Part shown: piece by piece, positions 23,757 to 41,833 of the stretch
Layout: every line of letters starts with the position of its first letter
Position numbering within the stretch: position 1 is the stretch's first letter
The notes under the pieces: generated by a model
Told to the model about the DNA's origin: nothing
Database searches by the model: none
The model's input: the letters and a program-made list of their open reading frames with translations, nothing else
Assembly (NCBI RefSeq): GCF_018140925.1
Contig: NZ_CP073315.1
Location: 868,001-932,000 of the forward strand
Length of the DNA stretch: 64,000 bases
Origin: Psychrobacillus sp. INOP01
GTDB lineage: Bacteria > Bacillota > Bacilli > Bacillales_A > Planococcaceae
Direction: 5' to 3'
Position numbers and translations under genes: made by a program

Positions 23757-24764
23757 TTAGAAAATCACAATAAACGGGAAATAGTAACTATTCGTTACTA
23801 TTTTTGACGTAATAATTTTTAAAACGTCGGTAACATCTCGCATATGCATACTTTGAAAGTTATACTTGTTCTTTAGATAGTCGACATGCTTTAAGATTTC
23901 TTCTAAAAATTGGAGGTTTTCCTTTGTATCTCTCCCAAAATTATGCGGATGCCACCATAAATGATAGAGTTCATTTTTCTTTGCGGCCCTAGTTAATCCC
24001 TTTTTAATTCGGCGGAGACGAAGCTGTTCTAACATGGACAATCTACTATTATAAGGTCTCAAAAAGCGACTAGAAGGTATATTGACAATGGGTTCTGCTT
24101 CGATATTCTTTAAACAATACGTGTGATTGCCAGATATATTTACATACGCATCTATTAGACGACACAATCGTTTCAGCCATGAATTTTTTTCACTTGTATG
24201 AGCTTTATACATCCAGGTTTTTTCATTTCCTCGGTACGCCTTTACTCCAAGCTCTTTACATAGATGTAAATAATCTGGATTTACTTGGTTCCTTGGAAAA
24301 ACCAAAGATGCCGTTTTTCCCAACGAAGAAACAGCCTTCAAATCCTTCTTAAAATGCTCCTTATCTTGCCCATTTTCTAAGCAATAAAAATGAGAAAAGG
24401 TATGTGTTCCAATCTCTTGATTGGATGTTTCTCGTATCATTTCGATTAGTGACATTCCGAAATGATAAGGATCCACCGTTTCATTCGCCCCTACTTTGGA
24501 AAGATTCATTATTGGACTAAATGCAGTATTTTCATAAGGTATATCCATCGTGTTAAAATATGATAATAGCTCCTGTTTATCCTTGCAATACAGCATACCA
24601 ACAATTGCCCATGTCGCATGAATATCATATTTTAAAAACAATTGGAGTATTTGAGGAATAGCTACTCGAGCACCGAGAATATTGGCTCCATATTCTTCTA
24701 TTGTATAAACATCATGTACTCCCCAATTAAGCTCAAAGTCTAATGATATAATAAGAGCCCCCAA
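23757..24764 (-). CDS. Polysaccharide deacetylase family protein
   Basis: A NodB-fold protein of 335 residues. The metal aspartate is in SLDFELNWG (about residue 9), the histidine motif is GTHTFSHF (about 138-145), and the later motifs are FPRNQ and WWHPHNF. No signal peptide or membrane anchor is seen, so it probably acts on a cytoplasmic nucleotide- or lipid-linked substrate. It is the last gene of the polysaccharide locus, 4 bp after a FemAB-like gene. Its final codons run through an inverted repeat at 23780-23802. Confidence 0.85.
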   Translation of the reverse strand: MGALIISLDFELNWGVHDVYTIEEYGANILGARVAIPQILQLFLKYDIHATWAIVGMLYCKDKQELLSYFNTMDIPYENTAFSPIMNLSKVGANETVDPYHFGMSLIEMIRETSNQEIGTHTFSHFYCLENGQDKEHFKKDLKAVSSLGKTASLVFPRNQVNPDYLHLCKELGVKAYRGNEKTWMYKAHTSEKNSWLKRLCRLIDAYVNISGNHTYCLKNIEAEPIVNIPSSRFLRPYNSRLSMLEQLRLRRIKKGLTRAAKKNELYHLWWHPHNFGRDTKENLQFLEEILKHVDYLKNKYNFQSMHMRDVTDVLKIITSKIVTNSYYFPFIVIF

Positions 24765-24768
24765 CTCC

Positions 24769-25491
24769 TCATCCTTTCCTCAGTTTAATCGTTCTCCCCC
24801 AAAGAACTAATTTCCCTATTAGGGAGCTTGCTTCATAACCTGAATAGACTTCAGTAATTTCACCGCCGAACTCCATTTTGAAACTGCTAATATTATCATT
24901 TGATGTTAAACCACCCATGTCGTATACCAAATTCCTTCTACCCTTAAAATACAGAATATTTTTCCAAAGTAAATAACGGCTAGCGATACTTAACATTCTT
25001 TTATCCGTTGAGTCATTCTTTAATCTAAAGTGAGATGCAGAGTACAAAGAAAAGGCAGTCTCCTTATCTGTAATATAAACTTGATAGCCAAGGATTTCAT
25101 TACTACTCCCATTTACTATTCTGGTAATTATCAAATTATTCGATTCAATTAATAACTCCATTGTTTTTACGTGGAATGCACCACATTTAAACGTATTGGT
25201 GTATTTCGCAAATTCATTGTAAAAGTTTTGAAATTCTCTTATATTAGCAATGGTCGGCTGGTCTATTACTTCTATTTGAAAATCAAACTTAGTTGCCTGT
25301 CGAATTTGTTTTCTAGTTGTACGATGAAGGTCTTTTAATAATTGTTCTTCGCTTTTAGTTAAATCAATAAGTAGCGTAGTTTGTTTTATCAATTGGTTAA
25401 CTGGTCGATAGGCATGAGAAAAACCAATAAGGTGCGCAGATGGTAATGGTGTTTCCCCAGTTTTTAAAAAGTAGCAATTTACTAATGTCAA
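24769..25491 (-). CDS. FemAB/GNAT-like aminoacyl or acyl transferase
   Basis: A 240-residue protein related to the FemAB/peptidoglycan-bridge group of the GNAT fold. Supporting segments are LHRTTRKQIRQATK near residue 55, the YSASHFRLKND region, the YDMGGL motif and FKMEFGGEITEV at the C terminus, as in Lipid II:glycine glycyltransferase relatives. Members use aminoacyl-tRNA or acyl-CoA. It lies between the two-domain GNAT protein and the deacetylase, so a polymer-tailoring role is likely. The donor is unknown. Confidence 0.7.
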   Translation of the reverse strand: MTLVNCYFLKTGETPLPSAHLIGFSHAYRPVNQLIKQTTLLIDLTKSEEQLLKDLHRTTRKQIRQATKFDFQIEVIDQPTIANIREFQNFYNEFAKYTNTFKCGAFHVKTMELLIESNNLIITRIVNGSSNEILGYQVYITDKETAFSLYSASHFRLKNDSTDKRMLSIASRYLLWKNILYFKGRRNLVYDMGGLTSNDNISSFKMEFGGEITEVYSGYEASSLIGKLVLWGRTIKLRKG

Positions 25492-25540
25492 ATTTAATAG
25501 TTTTCGCTTTACTAGGATTATTGTGGCACCTTCTTTTCTT

Positions 25541-27190: not shown

Positions 27191-28099
27191 TTACAATTTA
27201 TTATCTATATTAAAAGACTGAATAATTTCTTCCAATCCCTCCTCTAATGAGTAAAATGGTTCCCACTGAAGAAGTCTTTTAGCTTTTTCATTTGACAGTA
27301 CACTTCGTTTAATCTCCGCCGCATCCAACTCTTTTACAATTGGCTCTATTTCTATATTAGTAAAGTGTGAGATTAACTTAGATACTTCGTTAATCGTTCT
27401 TTCTATTCCTGAACTAATATGGAACACACCGGTTTCATGACTTACCAGTGCAGTAAGGCAAGCAGCGGCTACATCTTTTACATATATGAAGTCCCTTGTT
27501 TGACTTCCATTATGAATAATTGGCGCTTCTTTTTTATAAATTCGATGAAGAAAGCTCGAGATGACGCCACTCTCCTGATTTGGCCCATAAACATTCGAAA
27601 ACCTTAAAATACAGCTTTTAAGGCCGAACATTTTTTCATACAAGCGCACATAATTCTCAGCAGAAACTTTTGATAATCCATAAAAGGAAAGTGGAGATAA
27701 TTTAGAATCTTCCTCTACGGGTAGAGCACTCGGATTTCCATAAACAGCGGCCGAGGAAGCAAAAACACATTTTTTTATGTTAAATTGGTTGGCGTATTTA
27801 AGTGTATTGAGTGTTCCTAATACATTCGCTTGACAATCTGCTATTGGGTTCTCCATAGAATCCAGTACCGAAGTTTGTGCAGCTAGATGAATAACATAAT
27901 CCGGCTTTTCTAGTTCAAAAATGCGTTCAGTTTCAGAATTTGTAATATCAGCTTCATAGAATGTTGCATTTCTAGGTACTCTGCTTTTTTTTCCATTTGA
28001 AAGATTATCTAAAGCAACGACTGAAAATTGATGATCTAATAGCTCCTGGACTACAAATGATCCTATAAAACCTGCTGCTCCCGTTACTAGTACTTTCAA
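27191..28099 (-). CDS. NAD-dependent sugar epimerase/dehydratase
   Basis: An extended short-chain dehydrogenase of 302 residues with the Rossmann motif TGAAGFIGSFV (residues 6-16) and the catalytic YGLSKVSAE (YxxxK, about 145). It resembles GalE-like UDP-sugar epimerases but lacks features that fix the substrate. Its start overlaps the upstream glycosyltransferase by 4 bp (ATGA), so the two are coupled. It probably supplies a nucleotide sugar for the polymer. Confidence 0.85.
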   Translation of the reverse strand: MKVLVTGAAGFIGSFVVQELLDHQFSVVALDNLSNGKKSRVPRNATFYEADITNSETERIFELEKPDYVIHLAAQTSVLDSMENPIADCQANVLGTLNTLKYANQFNIKKCVFASSAAVYGNPSALPVEEDSKLSPLSFYGLSKVSAENYVRLYEKMFGLKSCILRFSNVYGPNQESGVISSFLHRIYKKEAPIIHNGSQTRDFIYVKDVAAACLTALVSHETGVFHISSGIERTINEVSKLISHFTNIEIEPIVKELDAAEIKRSVLSNEKAKRLLQWEPFYSLEEGLEEIIQSFNIDNKL

Positions 28100-29196
28100 T
28101 CTTTTTCCTCCAATTTTATTAGGTTTTTATACGTTTGAAAGGTTTGACTGTACATCCGCTCAAAGGTAAAACTAGCTTCATATATTTCGCGACTTTTTTT
28201 CCCCATACTTTTTCGTAGTGAAGGATTTTCGATTAATGTAGTAAGTAACTCGGGCAGATTATGGTGAATTAAAAACCCATTTTCAGAATTCCTCACAGCC
28301 TCTTTCACTCCCCCTACATTAGACGCAATAATTGGAAGTCCATGCGCCATTGCTTCTAATATGGATAGAGGCAACCCCTCCCATGAAGAAGTGAGTACAA
28401 AAATATCCGCATCCATCAATAGCTCGGAGACGTTGGAATGATTGCCTAAAAATGTTACTTTATTCCCCAAATGATGCTCCTGTACATATTGAGCCGACTG
28501 CTCTTTTAGCCTACCGTCACCAGCAAAAATCATATACCAATTTAATTCTCTTATTTGGAAAAGTGCATGTAATAGCTCCAATTGTTTTTTAGGTTTGTCA
28601 AAACGAGCCACCATTAATATTTTTACCATGTCATTAGGTACTAGTTGAACGTTACCGCGGCTTTGATCCATTACACCATTGTGAATTGTTATTAATTTGG
28701 AAGGGCTTAACACCTGATGTTGCAACGCAAGAATTCTGTCATAATCACATACGGTAATTACTTTTTTCGATATTTTACCAATCCACTTTTCTACTCTACG
28801 ATATAAAACCTGTTTGTTTTTCGCCACACCATCAGTGAAAGCCCATCCATGTGCTGTGAATACAAAAGGAATTCGAAGCGTCCAACAGGCGATTCTTCCA
28901 AGAATCCCAGCTTTAGAGGAATGAATAGCTACAATATCAGGATCCAATTGTTTTAAGGCTTTTCTAATTTCAAAAAAAGCGAGTAAATCCTTGACCAAGT
29001 TCATATTTCTTATTAAATGCTTCAGTGGAATGTATTCAATCTCTTTTACATAAAGCTCATCTGCTAGTTGTTTTTTGGTTCCATAAAGGATTGAGACTCG
29101 ATTACCGTCCGCTACCAGTCTTTTCGAAAGGTAAAGAACATGTACTTGAGCTCCCCCTACCTCATACATATGTGTAATCAGCTGAACAATTTTCAT
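28096..29196 (-). CDS. Glycosyltransferase, GT4 family
   Basis: A retaining GT-B glycosyltransferase of 366 residues. The N-terminal VGGAQVHVLYLSK is a typical acceptor-side start. The C-terminal donor site shows SSWEGLPLSILEAMAHGLPI with the EX7E motif and ASNVGGVKE. It is cytoplasmic or peripheral and probably adds one sugar to the undecaprenyl-linked repeat unit. It overlaps the epimerase gene by 4 bp. Confidence 0.9.
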   Translation of the reverse strand: MKIVQLITHMYEVGGAQVHVLYLSKRLVADGNRVSILYGTKKQLADELYVKEIEYIPLKHLIRNMNLVKDLLAFFEIRKALKQLDPDIVAIHSSKAGILGRIACWTLRIPFVFTAHGWAFTDGVAKNKQVLYRRVEKWIGKISKKVITVCDYDRILALQHQVLSPSKLITIHNGVMDQSRGNVQLVPNDMVKILMVARFDKPKKQLELLHALFQIRELNWYMIFAGDGRLKEQSAQYVQEHHLGNKVTFLGNHSNVSELLMDADIFVLTSSWEGLPLSILEAMAHGLPIIASNVGGVKEAVRNSENGFLIHHNLPELLTTLIENPSLRKSMGKKSREIYEASFTFERMYSQTFQTYKNLIKLEEKD

Positions 29197-29280: not shown

Positions 29281-30567
29281 TTAGAAGACATAGACATTAC
29301 TACTGATGAAATCATCTAATTCCTCTCTCTTCCTAACTACCATAAATTGATTATCTATTTTTGCGATAATTGGGGGTCTCTCTTTGATGAAAGGAGGATT
29401 AAGTACTATAGTGTAAGCACCCATGTTGTGGAATACTAGAAAATCTCCTGCTTTTGGAATTTCTCCAACATGGTCAATCATTAAATAATCTTTCTCCATG
29501 CATGTATAACCAACAACATTAAACCTATCTGTTTGATAGTCAGCTACATTTGTTTTGACAAGTTCCATCGAGGTATTTTTTTTACTAATACTAGGTTTAA
29601 TATTATGAACACTACCATTAACTAGAACAAAATATTCATTACCATTTCTCTTCACATCGACTACTTTACAAAAGAATTTAAATGTATCAACTACTAAAGA
29701 TAAACCTGGCTCGACTATTAAAAATGGTTCGTTTTTAAAATGTATTTTTTCTTTATTCATAATGGAACAGATCGCCATTGCATAATCATCATATGAAGGG
29801 ACGTTATTTATTTTCATTGTTTCGGGTACATGACCATAAAATCCGCCTCCAATATCCAGATACTCTAACGTGTTTGAAATATATATTTTTGAAAGATCGC
29901 ATAATTTCTGGGTTATTTTCTCATAAACTTCTAAACTTCTTAATTGGGTAGAAAAATGACCATGCAGACCAACCACATCTAAGTTTTCTATTTGCTTTAA
30001 ATCGTTTAAAGCTTTTTCTAAATTTCCATTTTCAACACAAAAGCCAAATCTACTTTGCTTAAATCCATCCTGAAGAGGGCTTTCCCCATCAATTGATATA
30101 TCAAAATTTACTCTTAATCCTACTTTATAATGATTGCTTTTATTCTTCCGAATATATTCTTTTACTATCTCAACTTCACTAAACGAATCTAGGTTAATAA
30201 TGCTGCCTTCTTTCAGCGCTAAAGCGATATCATCCGGAGACTTCAACGGGCCATTAAAAATAATATTCTTTGGATTCATTCCGATTTTTAGTGCTAAATC
30301 ATATTCAATCCTAGAAACAACTTCTGCGTATCCTCCTAATTTAGATATTTCTTTTAATAAAATTGGTAAATAATTTGTTTTATATGAATATCCAATAATA
30401 AATTTACTGTACCTACTACTAAATGCTGAGAACATCTTCAAATAGTTTGTGCTTAATTTTTCCAAGTCAAATAAATAAAAGGAGTCTCCAAATCGCTTTT
30501 TTAATAAATTCACTTTCTCTAAATAATCAACCTGGTCACTATTCTCTATTCCCTTAATATTGTGCAC
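29281..30567 (-). CDS. Fold-III PLP decarboxylase/racemase-like protein
   Basis: A 428-residue member of the alanine-racemase-fold decarboxylases (diaminopimelate/ornithine decarboxylase type). The PLP lysine is in IGYSYKTNYLP (about residue 61). A histidine is in LHGHFSTQ, the phosphate loop is YLDIGGGFYG, an EPG is in LIVEPGLSL, and the partner-site motif is TCMEKDYL, corresponding to CxxxD. It probably acts on an amino acid destined for the polymer. Housekeeping LysA is unlikely because of the locus. Substrate and reaction are unknown. Confidence 0.8.
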   Translation of the reverse strand: MHNIKGIENSDQVDYLEKVNLLKKRFGDSFYLFDLEKLSTNYLKMFSAFSSRYSKFIIGYSYKTNYLPILLKEISKLGGYAEVVSRIEYDLALKIGMNPKNIIFNGPLKSPDDIALALKEGSIINLDSFSEVEIVKEYIRKNKSNHYKVGLRVNFDISIDGESPLQDGFKQSRFGFCVENGNLEKALNDLKQIENLDVVGLHGHFSTQLRSLEVYEKITQKLCDLSKIYISNTLEYLDIGGGFYGHVPETMKINNVPSYDDYAMAICSIMNKEKIHFKNEPFLIVEPGLSLVVDTFKFFCKVVDVKRNGNEYFVLVNGSVHNIKPSISKKNTSMELVKTNVADYQTDRFNVVGYTCMEKDYLMIDHVGEIPKAGDFLVFHNMGAYTIVLNPPFIKERPPIIAKIDNQFMVVRKREELDDFISSNVYVF

Positions 30568-30626
30568 CGATTAATTAGCCCCTTTTTTATCTCATAATTG
30601 GTTGAATACTGAAATTAAATAAATTT

Positions 30627-31826
30627 TTAGCTAATCAATTGAATATCAATGTATTGTTTCATGTTCTTCATTTTGAATTTCAACTCTTCTGAGGAACTAA
30701 ACTTTAGGAAAACAATTCCCACTATTTTATCTAAGCCTTTAAATATTTCTATTTGATCTTCATATTTTTTATTTATTACTTTTTGAATAATATTTTCTTT
30801 TATTTCATCAGAAAATACTATCTCTTTTAGCTTTCCTTTTTCAAATGAATGCAAGTAATAAGTGGCATAGTAATTCTGTACCTGCCTGTCATTAATTTCT
30901 ATCTTGTTGTTATTTAAAGCTGCTTCAACGGTTGCTTTTACAAAGTCTACACCCGTTGCCATTTCTAATAGTTGAGATATCATATGCCCACCATTCCTAG
31001 CAGCCATTTCAATAATATATGGTTCTCCATTTCTATCAAACAGAACTTCAATATTAAAGACTCCCCTACTTATGTTCAATAAATTTATTACTTCTTGCAG
31101 TTCCTTGCGTACTAGTATTAGCCTTTCTTCCTCTATAAAAACTGGATAACTGTTACCTGTTGGAATAAATACATTTTTCTCTATATCTCTATATCCATTT
31201 AAAAATCCAAAACATTCAATAACTCCATCTACTACGATTATGTCTCCACCAATCATGCACTCATGTGTCATATCAATATACTCTTCGAGAATGACTAGTT
31301 TTTGTTTTGAATTTAAAAGAGCTTTATCAAACGCCCTATCAAACTCTTCCAGAGAAAATATCCGTGTAACTCCTCTACTTCCTGAAGAATCTACAGGTTT
31401 TACCATTATCGGAAATTCAAAATCTGTAAGGCAATCCTTTGCTTCACTTTTTGAATGGTTGCTTCTCACTTTAGGACAATTAAAGCCGTTATTCATTAAA
31501 AAATCTCTGAATAGGTTTTTATTCGATAAAATTAATACGGATTCATATGGATTTGATGGTAAGTTTAATTTGTTTGCTACATAAGCTGCCGTAGCTGTTG
31601 CTACTTCTGATGAATAAGCAACAATTCCATCGATATTCTTTTGCTTTGCAATTTCTAGTACCGCTTCCTTATCCGTTGTGCTTACACAATAATATTCATC
31701 AGAATGATATTGTCCTGGATTATCTATTAAATAATCACATAAAATAGTGTAATATCCTTGTTCTTTTGCACATTTAATCGCAATAACTTGCTGAGCAGAT
31801 CCACCAAGTAACATGATTTTCTTCAT
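30627..31826 (-). CDS. ATP-grasp carboxylate-amine ligase, paralog 1
   Basis: A 399-residue ATP-grasp protein. An N-terminal pre-ATP-grasp Rossmann-like domain begins MLLGGSAQQ. The ATP-grasp core has MVKPVDSSGSRGV (about 138-150) and the metal-binding FNIEVLFDRNGEPYIIEM with the downstream RNGG (about 253-277). Such enzymes form an acyl phosphate and then an amide bond. It is clearly related to the protein at 34917-36128 over its full length. The position among amino-sugar genes suggests amide coupling to the sugar or to an amino acid. Confidence 0.85.
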   Translation of the reverse strand: MKKIMLLGGSAQQVIAIKCAKEQGYYTILCDYLIDNPGQYHSDEYYCVSTTDKEAVLEIAKQKNIDGIVAYSSEVATATAAYVANKLNLPSNPYESVLILSNKNLFRDFLMNNGFNCPKVRSNHSKSEAKDCLTDFEFPIMVKPVDSSGSRGVTRIFSLEEFDRAFDKALLNSKQKLVILEEYIDMTHECMIGGDIIVVDGVIECFGFLNGYRDIEKNVFIPTGNSYPVFIEEERLILVRKELQEVINLLNISRGVFNIEVLFDRNGEPYIIEMAARNGGHMISQLLEMATGVDFVKATVEAALNNNKIEINDRQVQNYYATYYLHSFEKGKLKEIVFSDEIKENIIQKVINKKYEDQIEIFKGLDKIVGIVFLKFSSSEELKFKMKNMKQYIDIQLIS

Positions 31827-31844
31827 ACATACACCCCAATAATC

Positions 31845-32879
31845 TTAATGTTTTTTTGAAGTCTTGTTAGCATTAGAAATATGAGACATTGTCCATTTTC
31901 TATTTTCTAAATACCATTGTATTGTTTTTGAAAGACCGTCATTGAATGTATTAGAAGGAACCCATCCCAACTCTTCACTAATCTTAGTATTAGCAATCGC
32001 ATATCTTCTATCATGCCCCAAACGATCCTCAACAAATTCGATTAAATCCTCACTTTTGTTTAAATAATTTAAAATGAATTTAATAGTTTCTATATTTTCT
32101 TTTTCATTATTTCCACCGATGTTGTATACCTCTCCAATTCTTCCGTTATGGAAAACTGAATCGATTGCCGAGCAGTGGTCCTCCACATACAGCCAATCTC
32201 TTACTTGTTTTCCATCTCCATAGACTGGTATTGGAAGATTATTTAAAGCCTGTGAAATAACCAAAGGGATTAACTTTTCAGGATATTGATATGGACCATA
32301 ATTATTTGAGCATCTAGTAATAACAGCAGGTAATTTGTACGTTTCATAATAAGCTCTCACCATTAAATCTGCAGATGCTTTGGAGGCAGAATAAGGACTA
32401 TTCGGTGAGAGATTTGTCTTTTCAGTAAAATATCCTTCTTTACCTAAAGCACCGTAAACTTCGTCCGTAGAAATTTGGATAAATTTAACGTCGTCTTTAT
32501 ATTCAGTGCAATATTTATCTAATTTATGGACCTTCCAATAATGTTTGGCTGTATCTAATAATGCCTGTGTACCAAACACATTTGTTTTTAAGAAAACTTC
32601 TGGTTCATCAATACTTCTGTCTACATGAGATTCAGCTGCGAAGTGGATAACAGCTTGAATATCATATTGGTGAAACAGTTTAGATAGTAGATCACGATCA
32701 CAAATATCTCCTTTTACAAAGTGATATCTTTCTTCGTGCTCGATATCCTTTAAATTTTGCAGATTACCAGCATACGTTAATAAATCCAGATTAACTATTG
32801 TGTAATCATATTTTGATAGCATATATTTTATAAAATTTGATCCGATGAATCCTGCGCCACCTGTAACTAAGATATTCAT
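31845..32879 (-). CDS. rfbB: dTDP-glucose 4,6-dehydratase RfbB
   Basis: Converts dTDP-glucose to dTDP-4-keto-6-deoxyglucose with bound NAD. The 344-residue protein has TGGAGFIGSNF (residues 6-16), the active-site STDEVYGALG, and the catalytic YSASKAS (YxxxK). It lies 11 bp after rfbA. No rfbC (3,5-epimerase) or rfbD (reductase) follows, so rhamnose is not the evident product. Confidence 0.96.
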   Translation of the reverse strand: MNILVTGGAGFIGSNFIKYMLSKYDYTIVNLDLLTYAGNLQNLKDIEHEERYHFVKGDICDRDLLSKLFHQYDIQAVIHFAAESHVDRSIDEPEVFLKTNVFGTQALLDTAKHYWKVHKLDKYCTEYKDDVKFIQISTDEVYGALGKEGYFTEKTNLSPNSPYSASKASADLMVRAYYETYKLPAVITRCSNNYGPYQYPEKLIPLVISQALNNLPIPVYGDGKQVRDWLYVEDHCSAIDSVFHNGRIGEVYNIGGNNEKENIETIKFILNYLNKSEDLIEFVEDRLGHDRRYAIANTKISEELGWVPSNTFNDGLSKTIQWYLENRKWTMSHISNANKTSKKH

Positions 32880-32890
32880 CCTAATCTCCT

Positions 32891-33769
32891 TTATGCTCTA
32901 TTAGAATTTGCAACATCTACTAAATACTTGCCGTAGTTTGTCTTCATTAACGGTTCCGCGAGCTTTAGTAATTGTTCTTTCGATATATAGTTTCTGCGAA
33001 AGGCTATTTCCTCAATACATGAAACATATAATCCCTGTCGGTTTTGGATAGCTTCTACAAAATTAGATGCCTCTAAAAGAGACTCATGGGTTCCAGTATC
33101 TAACCAAGCTAATCCTCTTCCCATTATTTTTACCTTCAATTCTCCCAATTGAAGGTACTCATTAATAATAGAAGTAATTTCTATTTCTCCTCGATCAGAA
33201 GGTTTAACCTCTTTAGCTATTTTTGTTACTTGATTATCAAAAAAATAGAGACCTGGTATCGCGTAAAAGGATTTTGGATTCTCGGGTTTTTCTTCTATTG
33301 AAATAGCATTTTCTTCTTCATCTACCTCTACTACACCATATGCTCTAGGGTCCCTCACATAACACCCGAATATAAGGGCACCTTTTGATAAGTTAGTTGC
33401 TGCTTCCTGTACTTTATGCCCAAAATTAGAGCCATAAAAAATATTGTCACCGAGCACTAAAGCAACTGAAGAGTCGCCTATAAATTCCTCACCAATAATA
33501 AAGGCATCTGCAAGACCTGTTGGATTTTCTTGTATGGCATATGTTAAATCCACCCCTATTTTAGTACCATCTTCCAATAATTCTTGAAATCCCTCTATAT
33601 CTCTTGGAGTAGAAATAATTAGTATGTCTCTTATTCCCGCAAGCATTAAAACTGATAGAGGATAATAAATCATTGGTTTATCGTAAACTGGTAGCATTTG
33701 CTTAGAGATAGCCTTTGTTAGCGGATATAAACGAGTACCAGATCCACCAGCTAAAATAATTCCTTTCAT
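32891..33769 (-). CDS. rfbA: Glucose-1-phosphate thymidylyltransferase RfbA
   Basis: Makes dTDP-glucose from glucose 1-phosphate and dTTP. The 292-residue product has the nucleotide-binding [17 protein letters not shown] (residues 8-24), the VLGDNIFYG motif and [10 protein letters not shown]. The start overlaps the aminotransferase stop by 4 bp, tying amino-sugar synthesis to dTDP-glucose supply. Confidence 0.97.
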
Positions 33770-34884
33770 ATAGAATCACGGATCACTTTACAAATTTTCT
33801 CAACCGATTCAAGTTGCAATTCACCGTAATATGGCATAGCAAGTACTTGTGTCACAGCTTTATTGGCAATCGGAAGATTTTCTTTACGAGCAGATTCTAA
33901 ATGCTGATACCATTCAAAGTCGCTACATAAAGGATAAAAATACTTTCGTGTAAATACGTTGTACTCTTTTAGTTTCTCGTGTAGCCAATCTCTTGATCTT
34001 CCATACAACTCTTCATCTATTTGAATGACAAAATACTGATAACTGCTGCATTCATCTTCTAATTTCGTCAACACGTTAATACCAGGTACGTCGGTCAAGT
34101 ACAATTCATACGCTCTTTTTATTTCATGTCTTTTCTTGCGTTCGGTTTCCACAAGCTTTAATACTTCAAGTCCAACTACCGCCTGAATTTCGTTTAACTT
34201 TGCATTTAGACCTGAAAGAACCACCTCCTCTGGGTTTGCTATTCCAAAATTTTTTAGGAGGCTCAGTTTTTCAACTAAACTATTGTCTCTAAAAGTTAAT
34301 GCTCCGCCTTCTACAGTATTAAAGAGTTTTGTTGCATGGAAACTGAACATCGTCATATCACCGTAATTGCCAATAGCTTTATTATTTAGATTTGTTCCAA
34401 ATGTATGGGCACCATCATAAATTACCTTCAAATTATATTTGTTTGCGATTGATTGAATTTGTTCTACATCACATGGGTTTCCAAATGTGTGAACACCAAG
34501 AATAGCAGAAGTTTTTTCCGTAATGAGGGGTTCGATTTTTGCAGCGTCTAGGGTAAGTGTTGTGGGATCTATATCACAAAAAACAGGAGTTAAATTATTC
34601 CAATCTAATGCTTGAACTGTTGCGGGAAAAGTAAATGGAGTTGTAATAACTTCTCCGGTTAAATTTAAAGCTCTTAAACCTAAGAGTAATGCGAATGTCC
34701 CATTATTAAATAGGGATAAATTTTCTACTTGCAAATATTGTTTTAGTTCTTCTTTCAAATAGTCTTCCTGAGGGCCATTATTTGTAAGCCATTTACTATC
34801 CCAAACATCTTTTAGCTTAGCGTATACATCATTTAGATCAGGAAGTAATGGTCTTGTAATGTATATAGATTCATCTTTTATCAT
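33766..34884 (-). CDS. DegT/DnrJ/EryC1-family sugar aminotransferase, VioA-like
   Basis: A 372-residue PLP aminotransferase of nucleotide keto-sugars. The PLP lysine is in [16 protein letters not shown] (about residue 182), with the preceding DGAHTFGT motif holding the PLP-binding aspartate. The N-terminal [11 protein letters not shown] and SLFNNGT blocks resemble VioA-type enzymes that make dTDP-4-amino-4,6-dideoxyglucose. Coupling to rfbA and rfbB supports a dTDP-4-keto substrate. Position 3 versus 4 of amination cannot be decided by eye. Confidence 0.85.
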
Positions 34885-34916
34885 CTAAAACTCCCTTTTA
34901 ATCTCATTTGGATTGA

Positions 34917-36128
34917 TTACTCCATATCGTCTAATTGAATTTCAATGAACTTATTCATATTTTTCATTTTGAAATTTAATTCTTCTAAACTTCTATATTT
35001 CAAAAAAATAATTCCCATTGCTTTACTAGAGTTGTCAAATATTTCAACTTCTTCATTTACCTCTTTAAAGATAATTTTGTCAATTATATTCTCTTGTATG
35101 TCCTTGGAGAATATAATGTTTTTTAATCTACCTGCTTTAGAAGAATGGATGATATAAGTTGAAAAATAAGAATCTAATGGTAAAGAACAGCCAACTTTTA
35201 GTTCATCGATTTTTCCTAAAGCTGCTTCAACGGTAGCTTCAACTAAATCTACCCCTGTTATTATTTGGAGTAGTTGTGGTATCATATTCCCACCGTTTCT
35301 TGGTCCCATTTCTATAATGTATGGACCTCTATCTTTACTGAACATTACTTCAATATTAAATGCTCCCATTCTTATGTCCAGAAGGGTTATTACTTTTTGT
35401 AACTCATCATGTATTAAATGTATTTTTTCTTCCTCGATTAATAATGGATAGCTCTTACCTATTGGTACCAAGGAATTGATTTCTTTACTTCTATGACAAT
35501 TTAATAACCCAAAGAAGTCTATTTTTCCATTAACAACAAAAATATCACCCCCAACCATATACTCATGTGACATCTCAATAAACTCTTCAATAATCACCTG
35601 ATTATTCTTGGAGTAAGAAATTGCCGTATTAAATGCATCATTTAATTCTTCTTGTTTATCAATTTTGGAAACACCTTTACTACCTGAGGAGTCAGTTGGC
35701 TTAACTATTAATGGAAACTGAAATTCACTTAAACTATTAATTGCTTCTTCAACGTTTTTGAAGCTTTTTGCTTTAGGACAATTAAAATTATTTTTGAATA
35801 GAAATTCTCTAAATAAGTATTTATTTGACAGCACTAGTACTGACTCGTAGGAATTCGAAGGCAAATTTAATCTATTACTAACAAATGCTGCAGTTGCTGC
35901 AGCTGGATCGGATGCATATGCCACAATTCCATCAATCTTTTTTTGCATCGCGATTATGCAAATTGCCTCTTTATCAGTTGTGCTCTCACAATAAAATTCA
36001 TCTGAATAATATTGACCTGGATTGTCTTGTAAGAAATCACATAATATCGTATGATAACCCTGTTTTTGGGCATATTGTATTGCTGGTAACTGTTGTATTG
36101 AGCCTCCAAGGAACATGACTTTTCTCAT
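34917..36128 (-). CDS. ATP-grasp carboxylate-amine ligase, paralog 2
   Basis: A 403-residue ATP-grasp protein parallel to the one at 30627-31826. Shared blocks include ILCD, DNPGQY, STTDKEA, IDGIVAY, LNLPSN, FNCPK, KPxDSSGSxGV, GGDI and FNIEV. The metal-binding region ends in IIEMGPRNGG. It starts by a one-base overlap with the wzx stop (TAATG). Two non-identical copies suggest two different carboxylate or amine substrates, perhaps sequential couplings. Confidence 0.85.
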   Translation of the reverse strand: MRKVMFLGGSIQQLPAIQYAQKQGYHTILCDFLQDNPGQYYSDEFYCESTTDKEAICIIAMQKKIDGIVAYASDPAAATAAFVSNRLNLPSNSYESVLVLSNKYLFREFLFKNNFNCPKAKSFKNVEEAINSLSEFQFPLIVKPTDSSGSKGVSKIDKQEELNDAFNTAISYSKNNQVIIEEFIEMSHEYMVGGDIFVVNGKIDFFGLLNCHRSKEINSLVPIGKSYPLLIEEEKIHLIHDELQKVITLLDIRMGAFNIEVMFSKDRGPYIIEMGPRNGGNMIPQLLQIITGVDLVEATVEAALGKIDELKVGCSLPLDSYFSTYIIHSSKAGRLKNIIFSKDIQENIIDKIIFKEVNEEVEIFDNSSKAMGIIFLKYRSLEELNFKMKNMNKFIEIQLDDME

Positions 36129-37612
36129 TAATTCCCCTCACTTTTTCTTGATTTCTGACCAGATAAGAAAGACCTTAATAGTTCTATTAAAAGAAGCAAC
36201 TCACGAATATTACAGATTTTACTTAATCCTATATAAGCTCCAATACCTATACTAATTTGTAAAATAAGAGTGGAAATACTCCCGAGTGTTATTATCTTAC
36301 CAATCATAACTACAATAGCTCCCATTACAATGGAAACCCCCAAAATCGGTAGTAGGTCTTTTACCTGTTCTTTAGTCGAATATGAAATCTCTCTTGCTGA
36401 ATAATGCATATTAATAAGTAATGAAAGATAAGAATTTATGACTGCCGCGCAAATTAATCCAATGATTCCTAGCTTAAATAAGAAAGAAAGTACAATAAGT
36501 ATGGTGAGAAGGCCTTTTTTAATAATTTCTAATCGCAAAAACAAATCAGATCTACCTTTGACTTGTAAAATATTTAAGTTTAAAGCGTGAAGTGGATATA
36601 ACATTCCTGCAAAGCACAGCAATTGAAAATATATGACTGAAGGCATCCACTTCTCTCCAAAAAGAATTAGGAATATTGGGTTCCCTATTGCTGCCAAGCC
36701 AATTAACAATGGAAAGTTAATAAATGCAGAAAGTTTAATTATTTTCTTGAATCCTAGTTCAAGACGATTCTCATCCTCTTGGATACTACTAAGCACTGGA
36801 TACGTTACTCGTTGTACTGTCGAAGCTAAGGATTGCGATGCAAGGTCCCTAACTTTTACCGCATTTGTATAATATCCAAGCTGTGTAATTGAAAAAAACT
36901 TACCTATTATTAAAAAATAGAGATTGTTATAGAAAGTATCTATGAGACCAGAAAGAAGTAATTTTGAACCAAAACTAAAAAAACGTTTAAAGGATTGGTA
37001 ATTAAAAACAAAACTTGGTAGCCATCTATTATAAATAATGAGCAACAAAGCCTGAATTAGCTGAAGTAAAATCATATTAACTACCAGACTCCAGACTCCA
37101 AATCCTAAAACTGCTACAATTATTGTAATTGTTCCTGAAGTTACGGATGATATGACACTGATTTTTGTAATTGTACGAAAGTCAATCCTCTTCATAAGCA
37201 TAACTCTTTGAATAATTGCAAAGGCATTAATGATAATGACAATAGAAAGCACTCGAATAATCTCTAGTAATTGAGGTTCTTCAAAAAAAACACTAATTCC
37301 TTTAGAGCTGATAAAGAGTATTCCATATAATACAAAGGAGATTCCTAGATTAAAAAAGAACACAGTTGAATAATCTTCCTGAGTTGTGTGCTGATCTCTT
37401 ATGAGGGCCTGGGTAAATCCACTGTCCACAATAGAGTAAGAAATAGCGATAAATACTAAAATCATTCCAAACACACCAAAATGCTCTGGCACTAATAACC
37501 TAGCTAAAATTATTTGTATAATAAACTGAATCCCGTAATTTGCCATCAATTCAGTAAAACTCCAAACAATCGCTCGTGTCGTCTTATTCGTTAAAGAGGC
37601 TGTACCTTTCAT
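36128..37612 (-). CDS. Wzx-type polysaccharide flippase
   Basis: A 494-residue MOP-superfamily protein with about 12-14 hydrophobic segments, resembling WzxC/TuaB-type exporters. The N-terminal ILARLLVPEHFGVFG and the internal GFGVWSLVVN motifs are typical. It flips the undecaprenyl-PP-linked repeat across the membrane. It lies 10 bp after the GT2 gene and overlaps the downstream ATP-grasp by one base. Confidence 0.9.
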   Translation of the reverse strand: MKGTASLTNKTTRAIVWSFTELMANYGIQFIIQIILARLLVPEHFGVFGMILVFIAISYSIVDSGFTQALIRDQHTTQEDYSTVFFFNLGISFVLYGILFISSKGISVFFEEPQLLEIIRVLSIVIIINAFAIIQRVMLMKRIDFRTITKISVISSVTSGTITIIVAVLGFGVWSLVVNMILLQLIQALLLIIYNRWLPSFVFNYQSFKRFFSFGSKLLLSGLIDTFYNNLYFLIIGKFFSITQLGYYTNAVKVRDLASQSLASTVQRVTYPVLSSIQEDENRLELGFKKIIKLSAFINFPLLIGLAAIGNPIFLILFGEKWMPSVIYFQLLCFAGMLYPLHALNLNILQVKGRSDLFLRLEIIKKGLLTILIVLSFLFKLGIIGLICAAVINSYLSLLINMHYSAREISYSTKEQVKDLLPILGVSIVMGAIVVMIGKIITLGSISTLILQISIGIGAYIGLSKICNIRELLLLIELLRSFLSGQKSRKSEGN

Positions 37613-37621
37613 ATGATGTCC

Positions 37622-38617
37622 TTAATCATTTGGTTTTTTCATATATTTAGTAGTTTTTAAGCTGGATAATTTCATAAACAACTGCGGATAATTACAGCGT
37701 AGAAATACTTTAAGATGTACACTTACTTTGTACATTAAAGAATAGTTAGGTATTGTTTTATTCTTTATCCTTTTCTTTTGGAGGATTAATAATTCATATT
37801 CTAAGCCTTCCTGAACCTTTGCTATTTCATTTTTATACCTATATTCCGAGTATTCATTAAAGCCGTTTAACAGGTTAATAATTCCACTATTTATTTGAGT
37901 AACCTTTTCTCTATTATTACTGCTAAGAATCATGCGATTTGTCCATGATCCCTCTACACCACTTCGATATGCGCACATGCATTTATCCATATAATACGCA
38001 TACCCGTGACTTGCGAGTAACATCTGCATTGGATAATCACCTATTGGTGCTGTTTCATAAAAGTGAGGTGGATTTTCCATTAAGTTTTTAGGATAAAATA
38101 ACGATGGTGTTGGACAAAACCCTCCACCTCCAGTAATAATATCCTCCATTGGGCTAACTTGATCAGTAACATAAGGTCTAATAAATCTATCAGTTCTTTT
38201 ACTCGGTGCCTGAATTATTTCAGCAGAATGAAAGCATAAAGTACAATCTGGATGATTCTCCATATAGTCTACTTGCCGCTGCAGTTTATTAGGATCTGTC
38301 CAATAATCATCCCCTTCGCATTCAGCAATATACTTTCCTTTACTGTTTTGAATAAGTCGTTGCGAATTTTTTCTTGCACCTATATTAGTTGGAGATGTTA
38401 TTATTCTAATTTTATCTGGATACAAATTTGCATAGTGATCTACTATTTTTCTAGTATTATCAGTGCTACAATCTTCCCCAATTAGAATTTCATATTTAAA
38501 GTCTGTTATTTGATTTACAAAACTTTCAATTGCCTCAGCTATAAAATTCTCATGATTGTAAGTAGTACAGTTGACACTGACTAAGATATTCAATCTACCA
38601 CTCATTTCTTCGTTCAT
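37622..38617 (-). CDS. Glycosyltransferase, GT2 family
   Basis: A 331-residue GT-A fold enzyme. Nucleotide-sugar binding motifs are VSVNCTTYNHENFI near the N terminus, EDCSTDNT, and the DxD-like ECEGDDYW near residue 105. The start overlaps wzy by 23 bp. An alternative ATG five codons later (MSGRLN) is possible, because neither has a strong ribosome site. It probably adds an inner sugar of the repeat unit. Confidence 0.88.
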   Translation of the reverse strand: MNEEMSGRLNILVSVNCTTYNHENFIAEAIESFVNQITDFKYEILIGEDCSTDNTRKIVDHYANLYPDKIRIITSPTNIGARKNSQRLIQNSKGKYIAECEGDDYWTDPNKLQRQVDYMENHPDCTLCFHSAEIIQAPSKRTDRFIRPYVTDQVSPMEDIITGGGGFCPTPSLFYPKNLMENPPHFYETAPIGDYPMQMLLASHGYAYYMDKCMCAYRSGVEGSWTNRMILSSNNREKVTQINSGIINLLNGFNEYSEYRYKNEIAKVQEGLEYELLILQKKRIKNKTIPNYSLMYKVSVHLKVFLRCNYPQLFMKLSSLKTTKYMKKPND

Positions 38618-39758
38618 TTAATGGAATCCATGCTAAAGCTAGTAGCAGCCAAAAATGTCTCCAATGTAATGTATCAACAAAAAAACTATTAAATGCTAAA
38701 CCTATTAGACTTGCAAAAATGACGACATAAAAAACGCCATCCTCCCGCTTCGAACTCCAGTAACTGGAAAGTGCTTTAAACGTACTTACAATGAGAAAAA
38801 AACTGAAAGATAAAATACCGATTACACCGTTCTCTGTAAAAACCCGGGCGTAAAGGCTATGTGGAGAATATTTAAAGGTATTCTCAGACTGACCTGACCC
38901 AATTCCGAGTGGGTTAGAAATTCCACTTTCAAATGCCGCAAGCTGCGTTCCAAATCGCTCATTATCATAATTTTGAAAGCTTAATCGAGATACGAGTAAA
39001 TCTTCGATTAAAGGAGTTTGAATTATAAATAAAATAATCGGAATCCCGGCAATTACGATAAATAATACAGTATGAATTCTTCTTTTAAATAGATTTACTT
39101 TGAACAGAAATAGATAGATAAATAGAGAGATAAACAAGTTGCCCCATGCTGCTCTAGAAAAACTAATAATTACTGCAGCAATTAATATTAGAAAGGTAAG
39201 ATAGTAGAACATTTTTTTCTTTAATGGCATGTCCTTGCGCTCTGTCATACTTAACGAAAACAAGGCTGGCATAACTAAAAATGGACCAAAAACATTAGGA
39301 TCTTTGAAAAGTGCTTTGGCTCTTCCATACATTAAAAATAAATCACTAAAAGGTATGAGATTTAAAAAAGCTAAAATACCAATAATTGCTGAAAGACATG
39401 CAGATATTAAATAACCATGTAATATAAATTGCAAACGTATTCGAGTTATCCTTTTACTCAGCCCAATTATTCCAATCCACGTTAGTGCTAAGTAAAATGT
39501 AATTGCTGTAAAGAAAATAGAAGGTCCAATAGTTTTAATAAAAAATAAAGATAATATATTGCTTATTAAAAATATAGAGAGAATTATTATTGGAAAAACC
39601 ATTTCCTTTGAAAAGCTGTAGATAGAGAAAGTAAAACCTATTATTAAAAGTAGAATAATAAGTAGATCATAAGGAGATGGTTCGATGACAACGAAGGAGC
39701 TAACTGCCAATGTAAAAAATAAAAAATACGATATCCAATTATTACTTCTCTCAGCCAT
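38595..39758 (-). CDS. O-antigen ligase/polymerase family protein (Wzy)
   Basis: A 387-residue membrane protein with about ten hydrophobic segments and a large extracytoplasmic loop (about 255-305) containing GIGSGQSENTFKYSPHSLYAR. The histidine-bearing PHSLY is typical of the Wzy_C/O-antigen ligase family. It polymerises repeat units on the outer face of the membrane. Position between phosphatase and GT2 fits the Wzy role. Confidence 0.88.
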   Translation of the reverse strand: MAERSNNWISYFLFFTLAVSSFVVIEPSPYDLLIILLLIIGFTFSIYSFSKEMVFPIIILSIFLISNILSLFFIKTIGPSIFFTAITFYLALTWIGIIGLSKRITRIRLQFILHGYLISACLSAIIGILAFLNLIPFSDLFLMYGRAKALFKDPNVFGPFLVMPALFSLSMTERKDMPLKKKMFYYLTFLILIAAVIISFSRAAWGNLFISLFIYLFLFKVNLFKRRIHTVLFIVIAGIPIILFIIQTPLIEDLLVSRLSFQNYDNERFGTQLAAFESGISNPLGIGSGQSENTFKYSPHSLYARVFTENGVIGILSFSFFLIVSTFKALSSYWSSKREDGVFYVVIFASLIGLAFNSFFVDTLHWRHFWLLLALAWIPLNERRNEW

Positions 39759-39788: not shown

Positions 39789-40514
39789 CTATCTCTTTGT
39801 ATCCAATACGTAAAACTCGCTACCTTTTAAAACATGCTTTGCATTTTCTTTGAAATATTCTACTAAGTCAGTACTATATTTACTTTCAATATATTCATAT
39901 GCTTTGTTCAATAGAAAAGGTCGATGCCTTAAACTGTGCGCATCTGATGCAATAAAGTGAACAAGTTGTTCTTTTAGAAGCTGGTTCGAAAATGCCTTAA
40001 TTTTCCTTCCATTCTTTCCAAGTACACTTCCAGCTGTAATTTGTAAAAGTGCTCCTCTTGCTACAATTTCTAATACTTTATCTTTGTTCTGCAAGAGAAA
40101 TGCGTTCTTTTCTGGATGAGCAATGATTGGTATTAAGCCCTTTAATTGAAGTTTATATAATACATCGAATAGATAAGGAGGAAAGTGATTATTAGGTAAT
40201 TCAATTAGTAGATATTTCCCACTATTCGCTAGGGTTAATAAGTTATTATCTAATATACTTTCATTCAATAATATTTCCATTCCAGCATATAACGTAACGG
40301 GAATATTTTTTTCTAGTAATAGTGCATTCATTTCCCTTACCTTCGTGTATACAATCAATGATTTATTTTTATACGTTTCGTCTTGGTGCGGAGTTGCTAC
40401 AATATGTTTTATTCCGTTAGCTGCCGCATTCGCTATAAGCATCAATGATTGTTCTACTGTTGCAGCACCATCATCTAACCCTGGTAAAATATGATTATGA
40501 ATATCTACTAGCAA
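39789..40514 (-). CDS. Tyrosine-protein phosphatase, CpsB/YwqE type
   Basis: A 241-residue PHP-fold, metal-dependent phosphatase. Metal ligands appear in DIHNHILPGLDDGA (residues 4-17), HPEKN (about 139) and SDAHS (about 200). In Firmicutes it dephosphorylates the tyrosine kinase of the same locus and so controls chain length and output. It starts 14 bp after that kinase. Confidence 0.92.
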   Translation of the reverse strand: MLVDIHNHILPGLDDGAATVEQSLMLIANAAANGIKHIVATPHQDETYKNKSLIVYTKVREMNALLLEKNIPVTLYAGMEILLNESILDNNLLTLANSGKYLLIELPNNHFPPYLFDVLYKLQLKGLIPIIAHPEKNAFLLQNKDKVLEIVARGALLQITAGSVLGKNGRKIKAFSNQLLKEQLVHFIASDAHSLRHRPFLLNKAYEYIESKYSTDLVEYFKENAKHVLKGSEFYVLDTKR

Positions 40515-40528
40515 TTGTCTCCGCTCCT

Positions 40529-41833
40529 TTAGTAATAATCAGTTGATCGATCTTGTTGAAATTTATTTCGATTTAAAATTGTTCCTAATACATTAGCTTG
40601 CACTTTATGAAGCTTCTCTAAGCTTTTCTTTGCAATATCCTTTTTTGTTTTACTACCATTGATAACGAGCAGACAGCCATCCGCTATATCTACTAAACTA
40701 AGCACATCAGCAACCAATAATGGTGGACTATCAATAATAATGACATCAAACTGCTTCTCTAACTGGTTGAGCAATATTTTCATCTCATTGGATGAAGAAA
40801 TTTCAGCTGGATTCGGAGGATAAGGACCTGCCCCAATGAATGACAGGTTTTCAAATTCTGTAAGTTGGATAATATCTGCAAGCTTTGCCTGCCCAGCTAC
40901 AAAGGAAGTAATCCCTGCTTGTTTTTTCATATTAAATATTTTTCTACCTACAGGTCGACGTAAGTCTGCGTCAACATAGACAACTTTTTTATTATCCATC
41001 GCAAACGTTTTCGCTAAACTTGCACTGATGAATGATTTTCCTTCCCCCGCAACTGAGCTTGTAATTACAACCGATTTAATTGTTTGTTCATTTAATTGGA
41101 ATTGTATATTTGCTCGTATGTTTCGAAAGGACTCAATCGAATTTTCAAACCTGTTCAATTGGTCTTTTATAACAGGAATTGAACCCATGCTAGGTAAACT
41201 AAGATGCTTTTCTGTTAATTCCTCAAGATTTAAAATAGTAAAATATGTTTCTTTTATTATTAAGAAAACGAAACAAATAAATGTTCCTAAGAAAAAAGAA
41301 ATAACGAAATAAAACGCAGAATGCGGATTAACCACTTTTGTATTATTTTTAATTGAAGCTTCCCCGAGGATAATTAAATTTTCCATCTTCATCAAAGTCT
41401 TAATTTCTTCTTGAAATACATTCGCAACCATATTTACTAAATCAACTGCACCCTTCGCTGTTCCATCCTGTACTTGAATCGTCATGATTTGTGACTGGTT
41501 ATTCGATATTATTGTTATTTTATTTTTTAATTCATTTATACTTACTTTGTTATCCATGGAATCACTTACTTTTTCTAATACTTGGTTTGTAGTTAATAAA
41601 TATTTATATGTTTCAATTAAACGTAAATTCGCATCGATCTCATTGATGGAGACCCCTGTGTTTGGAGTAGTTGAGTAATTAACAAGAATATCCATTTCTG
41701 CTTCATAAACTTTTGGAATTGTTAGTCCAATGGCTCCTCCAGTGCAAGTTATGAACAATATAATCACTACTATTCGGATCCAATAACTTTTTATTACTCC
41801 AAATATTTGCTTAATATTGATACTATAATTCAT
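40529..41833 (-). CDS. Fused Wzz chain-length modulator and tyrosine autokinase
   Basis: A 434-residue protein joining two parts. Residues 1-190 form a Wzz domain with two membrane segments (about 16-36 and 170-190). From about 215 there is a BY-kinase: Walker A SSVAGEGKSFIS, the VVYVDADLRRP Walker A' motif, a FDVIIIDSPP Walker B, and a tyrosine-ending tail DRSTDYY. In B. subtilis and streptococci the two parts are separate proteins. The ATG has only a weak upstream ribosome site. Confidence 0.9.
   Translation of the reverse strand: MNYSINIKQIFGVIKSYWIRIVVIILFITCTGGAIGLTIPKVYEAEMDILVNYSTTPNTGVSINEIDANLRLIETYKYLLTTNQVLEKVSDSMDNKVSINELKNKITIISNNQSQIMTIQVQDGTAKGAVDLVNMVANVFQEEIKTLMKMENLIILGEASIKNNTKVVNPHSAFYFVISFFLGTFICFVFLIIKETYFTILNLEELTEKHLSLPSMGSIPVIKDQLNRFENSIESFRNIRANIQFQLNEQTIKSVVITSSVAGEGKSFISASLAKTFAMDNKKVVYVDADLRRPVGRKIFNMKKQAGITSFVAGQAKLADIIQLTEFENLSFIGAGPYPPNPAEISSSNEMKILLNQLEKQFDVIIIDSPPLLVADVLSLVDIADGCLLVINGSKTKKDIAKKSLEKLHKVQANVLGTILNRNKFQQDRSTDYY

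Follow-up and report, generated by a model that had tools for sequence, protein, structure and literature searches.

Bacterial polysaccharides are known in which an amino acid is carried on an amino sugar, and the literature that we found names, in the parts available, no ligase for this attachment. On 4-amino-4,6-dideoxyglucose (Qui4N), N-formyl, acetyl, N-acetylglycyl and hydroxybutyryl-alanyl groups are described, and in one case the amine is free (PMC3210612). The aminoacyl forms, such as N-acetylglycyl, N-[(R)-3-hydroxybutyryl]-L-alanyl and N-acetyl-D-alanyl Qui4N, are listed in a review of Gram-negative marine bacteria, and the available portions of that source name neither a ligase nor a decarboxylated amino acid (PMC3210612). 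The locus analysed here lies in a 64-kb window (the whole stretch of DNA that was studied) of the single-contig, 4.30-Mb genome of Psychrobacillus sp. INOP01. Its central six genes, at 29281-36128 on the minus strand, encode RfbA, RfbB, a predicted sugar aminotransferase (AT), two ATP-grasp ligases (AGA and AGB) and a fold-III pyridoxal phosphate (PLP) enzyme (LYSA), just as the original prediction had placed them. On balance, and with modest confidence, we favour the reading that the operon around them directs synthesis of a surface polysaccharide of the Wzx/Wzy type that contains N-acylated Qui4N, that the ATP-grasps add amino acids at N4, and that the residue handled by AGB and LYSA ends as a free amine. 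The predicted product, Qui4N aminoacylated at N4, would fall in the class of the polymers above (PMC3210612).

An ATP-grasp enzyme and a LysA-like decarboxylase, probably of the same branch as LYSA, are also found together in the butirosin pathway (BtrJ and BtrK). Butirosin differs by its BtrI carrier and its antibiotic cluster, whereas the present pair belongs to a sugar operon, direct ligase-decarboxylase fusions occur in relatives, and Pfam finds no acyl carrier domain in any of the 17 genes of the operon. Among other systems, the ATP-grasp enzyme PylC makes pyrrolysine, and Cj1436 is the decarboxylase of the Campylobacter uronamide system. The latter system (Cj1438/Cj1435) likewise has, at a capsule locus, an ATP-grasp amide ligase together with a small amine group, but the amide is formed on a uronic acid carboxylate, the ligase is TupA-like and the repeat unit quoted in the available part of the source has no 4-amino sugar (PMC11800379). 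The decarboxylases FslC/FigC and SbnH act on an amino acid that is already joined and resemble LYSA in a Cys-Met pair and in a Lys at the SbnH K347 site; they differ in having an NRPS-independent siderophore (NIS) synthetase as partner and citrate as tether (PMC7857480).

Aminoacyl-Qui4N polymers are thus already known chemistry. No description of this ligase-decarboxylase module or of the enzyme route was found in the open-licence literature (subscription papers may hold one), the module being absent from the available parts of PMC8503589, PMC2824669, PMC11800379, PMC2922099, PMC4431377, PMC11405602, PMC11278836 and PMC3210612. This agrees with the original prediction, which knew of no named Bacillales system with this set, but the set is not unique. 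The genome search that the prediction proposed finds it complete and in the same order in Psychrobacillus antarcticus, with ligase number varying among relatives and the LYSA/ATP-grasp pair widespread.

The aminotransferase and the slot beside it

RfbA and RfbB both score above their NCBIfam equivalog cut-offs (Table 1). The top NCBIfam model for AT is DesI (TIGR04427), ahead of the QdtB and WecE types, with 307.7 bits against a cut-off of 650, and its top PDB match is 2po3 (221.5 bits), labelled '4-dehydrase', which we take to be DesI. RmlC/RfbC (PF00908), reported missing in the original prediction, is matched neither in the operon nor anywhere else in the genome, and the family is detected in 11 of 14 control genomes. 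FdtA, which is required for 3-amino sugars, has no match in the host genome either (PF05523), with the weak control that just one of the 14 control genomes is positive. Because RmlC and FdtA are without a match and RfbA, RfbB and a DesI-type AT are present, the product is likely, on sequence grounds, to be deoxythymidine diphosphate (dTDP)-Qui4N, in keeping with the 4-amino dideoxy sugar pathway first proposed.

AGA and AGB, 57% identical, belong to an ATP-grasp group (top PDB matches 4dim and 3vot) other than the PylC-like/PRK12767 enzymes, and AGA residues K103, K143, E181 and R277 are conserved in 46 of 46 alignment rows. Among 261 genomes of the host's family, an AGA-type ligase (E <= 1e-40) was found in 28 and AT (E <= 1e-60) in 56; of those 28, 16 carry a DesI-type AT no more than 5 kb from the ligase, and seven carry LYSA at such a distance. 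The slot between wzx and AT was compared in 40 regions (loci and regions are numbered L, proteins P and genomes G), 23 chosen by an AGA-type match and 17 by an AT match, whose shares are not frequencies. A DesI-type AT is visible in 28 of the regions and none is in view in the other 12. Upstream of AT, the 28 hold AGA-type ligases (11 regions), a PylC-like ATP-grasp (4), small genes without ATP-grasp (5), Wzx abutting AT (4) or other genes (4). The AGA-type copies number one to three, and one or two extra genes precede AT in L184, L188, L191 and L192. Pfam scans recognised GNAT acetyltransferases in L215 and L219, which lack an ATP-grasp (the only two of the five small-gene regions with a GNAT-sized gene scanned), and beside an AGA-type ligase in L192.

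Since the slot elsewhere holds GNAT genes or nothing, the gene context, which is the main evidence, supports the ATP-grasps as acylators of N4. Formyltransferases were rejected as replacements of the ligase: those of L189 and L195 (Pfam scan; L195 shows no AT) and of L184 (judged by start and length, unscanned) all adjoin AGA-type ligases, and the notion of replacement therefore depends on the GNAT genes and the empty slots. The amide-decorated amino sugar of the original prediction is retained in a refined form, with AGA beside AT and AGB with LYSA, the two not being equivalent. Its 'double ATP-grasp' had to be given up as the defining feature, as relatives carry one, two or three copies.

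The ligases might instead act on a carboxylate, LYSA making an amine that AGA or AGB attaches to a uronic acid of the polymer's repeating unit, much as Campylobacter Cj1438 does. ATP-grasp amidation of glucuronic acid is reported (PMC11800379), and uridine diphosphate (UDP)-sugar dehydrogenase-like genes lie elsewhere in the host genome and near LYSA in L200 and L201. Such a uronamide is nevertheless improbable: the operon contains no dehydrogenase Pfam, dehydrogenase-like genes occur in just five of 79 LYSA loci (L053, L080, L088, L090, L107), Cj1438C is TupA-like and the TupA Pfam has no match in the operon, and the ligases are tied to AT both by the slot comparison and by their proximity in the 16 genomes above.

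Three tandem ATP-grasps in L186, found together with AT, RfbA and RfbB, are immediately preceded by a diaminobutyrate transaminase of EctB type (L186:5748-7028), which scores 584 bits against a cut-off of 552.2. A similar class-III aminotransferase (Pfam scan only; L187:6422-7735) stands before three tandem ATP-grasps with AT, RfbA and RfbB in L187. This suggests that an amino acid is made within the operon, with diaminobutyrate as a building block. Ectoine synthase had no match in either of the two genomes searched (G156, G157), a search whose control was positive in no genome, so that absence is not established. The host genome has no close EctB, its best match reaching 31% identity.

Other small proteins were seen in these regions. 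A 320-aa protein with no Pfam match lies beside the Qui4N aminotransferase in L217 (L217:7610-8569), and proteins of 320-340 aa with similar starts occur in L188, L191 and L192. WbqC-family proteins (PF08889) are located near AT or RfbA in L215 (L215:10251-10952, downstream of AT) and L195 (L195:11693-12184), and genes of about 235 aa with starts like those of WbqC proteins in L183, L184, L189 and L217.

The AGB/LYSA pair and its relatives

Genome contigs were searched with a profile of the LYSA alignment. The best 80 of 150 relatives represent 79 distinct loci, in 74 of which LYSA was recognised by gene calling. Counted in genes from LYSA, positions -7 to +5 include an ATP-grasp of either type in 70 of the 74 loci, a PylC-like one in 65 (PF21360 in the scanned representative) and an AGA/AGB-type one in eight. 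The PylC-like ligase is the very next gene to LYSA in 58 loci; some other Psychrobacillus also have a PylC-like enzyme in the slot beside AT. In the family search an ATP-grasp adjoins LYSA in 14 of 20 loci (L009, L011, L012, L015, L017, L020-L024, L026-L029). For L013, L014, L016 and L018, a PylC-like ATP-grasp is found in the AT slot of the respective cluster (L162, L170, L034, L178), and L019 and L025 have no ATP-grasp within about 1.4 kb of the LYSA flank. In a 46-row ATP-grasp tree, where rows L098, L104, L204, L205 and L199 are long and of uncertain position, AGB falls in a five-row clade (support 100/99) whose members all lie beside LYSA, and AGA is placed elsewhere. A recent tandem duplication of AGA and AGB in Psychrobacillus was rejected, AGB clustering with Sporosarcina LYSA-neighbours.

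The locus L206 is syntenic with the window (AT 90%, RfbA 90%, RfbB 81%, GT4 84%, SDR 79%, GNAT_6 85%, FemAB-like 82%, deacetylase 94%). It lacks AGB and LYSA, 108 bp separating RfbB from GT4 instead, and its slot holds a PylC-like ATP-grasp. Among 19 genomes of the genus, AT is present in eight, three of them with a close LYSA and an AGA/AGB-type ligase and five with neither. AGB and LYSA seem to form a separate, mobile two-gene cassette, gained or lost together. The GNAT_6, FemAB-like and deacetylase genes were rejected as cassette parts because they are retained in L206 despite the missing pair. GC content was likewise discarded as a mark of the cassette, the values of AGB (31.2%) and LYSA (30.6%), like that of AGA (31.0%), not being set apart from the operon range (30.6-37.2%). 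The three operon-end genes (23757-27175) recur in the LYSA-free Psychrobacillus loci L206 and L209; GNAT_6 clusters are found near LYSA in 27 and FemAB-like clusters in eight of the 74 loci (few members scanned).

A search with AGB and LYSA joined as the query gave 353 proteins, of which 120 were listed, and fusions were checked by Pfam. Natural fusions among the matches listed are ATP-grasp-LYSA in P0121 (a single cluster of three sequences, for which a frameshift is conceivable), LYSA-PylC-like in P0131, P0134 and P0145, and ATPgrasp_Ter-LYSA in P0201; eight further listed proteins have LYSA-PylC-like precomputed domains. As both domain orders occur, ligase-decarboxylase fusion would have arisen more than once. 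Pfam also confirmed, among the matches listed, ATP-grasp-GNAT (P0124, P0128), Wzx-ATP-grasp (P0125) and Bac_transf-LYSA (P0141) fusions. P0127 was rejected as a fusion of ATP-grasp with a DegT sugar aminotransferase and left unused as evidence of a sugar link, its scan giving class I/II aminotransferase at 228 bits and DegT at just 38.

That the pair produces some free small molecule with no relation to the sugar, its place in the operon being incidental, is very unlikely. Siderophore decarboxylases are indeed relatives, and L091 presents a LYSA-ATP-grasp pair without a visible sugar locus, but many pairs across several phyla are surrounded by genes for glycosyltransferases, flippases and initiating transferases, and in P0141 LYSA is fused to an initiating transferase domain. 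A DegT-type AT was seen in 42 of the 79 LYSA loci, and acceptors other than Qui4N are possible.

Some relatives have another setting. L107 (L107:9989-12967) and L108 (L108:8435-12036) lack an ATP-grasp; the neighbours of LYSA there are a class IV aminotransferase, identified by scan in L107, and an HpcH/HpaI-like gene, identified by scan in L108. HpcH/HpaI-LYSA proteins (P0129, P0130, P0132) are among the matches listed; perhaps this is a separate LYSA pathway. In the gammaproteobacterial loci L084, L095 and L097, small clusters of LYSA with a PylC-like ATP-grasp stand outside big sugar loci, accompanied by Bac_transf in L095 and L097 and by GNAT_6 in L084 and L097.

LYSA residues and the order of reactions

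LYSA scores 195.6 bits with the lysA model, below the equivalog cut-off of 297.9 for diaminopimelate decarboxylase (DAPDC), and 163.1 bits with the FslC model (cut-off 500); no siderophore synthetase Pfam is present in the operon. In an alignment of 77 family rows of 380-480 aa only, K63 (PLP lysine), H204, E286 (the Glu of EPG), C356 (catalytic Cys), D360 and Y385 are invariant. From these residues LYSA should be a working decarboxylase. Of the original 'decarboxylase/racemase relative', the first term is upheld by the catalytic Cys and the second is dropped.

Position 324, the site of DAPDC R343, is Lys in 70 and Arg in three of the 77 rows, and the residue after the catalytic Cys is Met, Leu or Ile in all of them (Met in the window). 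The host has a separate LysA (genome 3909072-3910283) with the DAPDC-type Arg and Glu at these sites. LYSA was accordingly rejected as the housekeeping LysA. Many relatives are publicly named diaminopimelate decarboxylase, but with a score under the lysA cut-off, specificity residues altered family-wide and a proper LysA elsewhere in the genome, a spare DAPDC for lysine is barely credible.

The acidic residue beside the Cys, through which DAPDC contacts the free amine of the side chain, is Met in FigC/FslC (FigC M355), and SbnH K347 contacts a carboxylate of the tethered citrate (PMC7857480). At the latter position the window LYSA has K359, with Lys in 56 and His in 10 of the 77 rows. A single clade, clade 2, unites FslC, SbnH, AcsE, MccE and BtrK, whose substrates are already joined, with DAPDC and D-ornithine decarboxylase (D-ODC), whose substrates are free amino acids (PMC7857480). 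The top PDB and Foldseek matches of LYSA are DAPDC, 7kh2 and BtrK; for its predicted model (m064a45315d69; mean predicted local distance difference test score 82), Foldseek gives template modelling (TM) scores of 0.83 with DAPDC 1twi, 0.81 with BtrK 7ru7 and 0.79 with FslC 7kh2. Since the residue pattern is nearer to the joined-substrate enzymes, it is proposed that LYSA may decarboxylate a tethered amino acid already joined by AGB, like N-citrylornithine decarboxylase.

The same product would be reached in the other order if LYSA converted free Glu, Asp or aminoadipate to a beta-, gamma- or delta-amino acid and AGB coupled it to N4 of Qui4N. The fusions are compatible with either order, and DAPDC and the D-ornithine/D-lysine decarboxylases, which share the fold, take free amino acids. 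LYSA, however, has no acidic residue next to the Cys to contact a free side-chain amine, and has Met there as in the adduct-acting FslC. We consider decarboxylation before ligation rather unlikely.

In the favoured scheme, with ligation first, RfbA, RfbB and AT would likely convert glucose-1-phosphate to dTDP-Qui4N. As the gene context suggests, AGA would use ATP to activate an amino acid for attachment at N4, the acceptor being either the nucleotide sugar or the lipid-linked unit. AGB would join a further or alternative amino acid, a step supported by its pairing with LYSA, and this would be the sole residue in the AGB-only relatives L031, L033 and L087. LYSA would then strip the alpha-carboxylate, most likely on the tethered residue, as FslC, SbnH and BtrK do, and ordinary Wzx/Wzy export would follow. 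An alpha-decarboxylated residue needs a second carboxylate for the amide, and the donor is therefore probably dicarboxylic and side-chain linked. Candidates are gamma-Glu, giving a gamma-aminobutyric acid amide, and beta-Asp, giving a beta-alanyl amide, either with a free primary amine at the tip. Both the donor and the order of ligation and decarboxylation are what we infer from these comparisons.

Several observations weigh against ligase-built, amine-ended Qui4N. AT remains under the DesI cut-off. Formyltransferase genes occur only beside, never instead of, an AGA-type ligase. In 30 loci of the 56 AT hits, the gene immediately upstream of AT is Wzx in 16, PylC-like in seven, a kinase in three, AGA-type in two and a gene of about 345 aa in two, an ATP-grasp thus standing there in only nine. 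Four of the 74 LYSA loci are without ATP-grasp (L096, on a short contig, L099, L107 and L108), and no DegT-type AT is seen in the available flanks of 37 of the 79 LYSA loci, some of them ended by contig edges. DAPDC and D-ODC, near kin of LYSA, act on free amino acids, and the dehydrogenase-like genes elsewhere in the genome make a uronic acid acceptor conceivable. The literature yielded no structure for a polymer of this kind; the available part of the Mariniflexile paper gives no O-antigen structure.

A more general scheme is offered tentatively, as it is doubtful in its full extent: a carrier-free peptide assembly on the sugar, in which each ATP-grasp (one to three in tandem, of position-specific lineages) would add one residue to the 4-amino group. 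A swappable, sometimes fused ligase-decarboxylase cassette would load an acidic amino acid and strip its alpha-carboxylate on the sugar, leaving a primary amine end and a cationic or zwitterionic polymer, and it would serve Qui4N and other 4-amino sugars in Firmicutes, Cyanobacteria, Proteobacteria and Bacteroidota. If the favoured reading is true, an ATP-grasp and LysA-like pair would account for one attachment of an amino acid to an amino sugar in several phyla, amine-ended surface sugars would become predictable from sequence, and 'diaminopimelate decarboxylase' annotations would be corrected. For this enzyme branch, citrate, microcin and carrier-protein tethers are described, and a decarboxylase acting on a sugar-bound residue would extend that list. 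The natural fusions allow a direct test with one protein.

The operon

Seventeen minus-strand genes run from 42733 to 23757 and include the six genes discussed above (Table 1). They are spaced by -23 to 84 bp, except for 246 bp between genes 1 and 2; given this short spacing, with its one exception, they are read as one operon. An initiating transferase, a Wzz/kinase, a CapC phosphatase, a Wzy-like protein, a GT2 and Wzx lie upstream of the six-gene stretch, and a GT4, an SDR, GNAT_6, a FemAB-like and a deacetylase-like protein downstream. The Wzx/Wzy set is thereby present, with Wzy slightly below its Pfam cut-off. The nearest named relative, Psychrobacillus antarcticus (L030), has 15 of the 17 genes in identical order, with protein identities of 79-97%; genes 1 and 2 fall outside the locus.

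Table 1. The 17 genes of the operon, from first to last, with positions in the window
Gene product	Position	Strand	Support
PgtT, initiating bacterial sugar transferase (Bac_transf), operon gene 1	42080..42733	-	PF02397, 203.6 bits
WzzK, Wzz chain-length domain and BY-kinase-like ATPase domain in a single protein	40529..41833	-	PF02706 and PF13614
CapC/CpsB-type phosphatase	39789..40514	-	PF19567, 196.6 bits
Wzy-like polymerase / O-antigen ligase fold	38595..39758	-	PF04932, 29.8 bits (slightly below cut-off 31.7)
GT2 glycosyltransferase	37622..38617	-	PF00535
Wzx flippase	36128..37612	-	PF13440, 292 bits
AGA, ATP-grasp ligase of the variable wzx-AT slot	34917..36128	-	ATP-grasp Pfams; PDB 4dim, 134 bits; 3vot (L-amino acid ligase), 65 bits
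AT, predicted DesI-type dTDP-4-keto-6-deoxyglucose 4-aminotransferase	33766..34884	-	PF01041 (DegT/DnrJ/EryC1), 318 bits
RfbA, glucose-1-phosphate thymidylyltransferase	32891..33769	-	TIGR01207, 461.8 bits (cut-off 360.65)
RfbB, dTDP-glucose 4,6-dehydratase	31845..32879	-	TIGR01181, 496.5 bits (cut-off 365.1)
AGB, the other ATP-grasp ligase, paired with LYSA (cassette gene 1)	30627..31826	-	ATP-grasp Pfams
LYSA, fold-III PLP decarboxylase (Orn/DAP/Arg decarboxylase; DAPDC/FslC/BtrK kind), cassette gene 2	29281..30567	-	PF02784, 105 bits
GT4 glycosyltransferase	28096..29196	-	PF00534
SDR, nucleotide-sugar epimerase-like	27191..28099	-	PF01370; GalE model 188 bits (below cut-off 262.3)
GNAT_6, Acetyltransf_6 (GNAT/Fem-like) protein, 544 aa	25541..27175	-	PF13480, 90.8 bits
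FemAB-like protein, short	24769..25491	-	PF02388, 25.6 bits (cut-off 24)
Polysaccharide deacetylase-like protein, final operon gene	23757..24764	-	PF01522, 24.8 bits (cut-off 23.1)

The Wzz and BY-kinase-like domains, joined in the window at 40529-41833, are encoded by two separate genes in several relatives.

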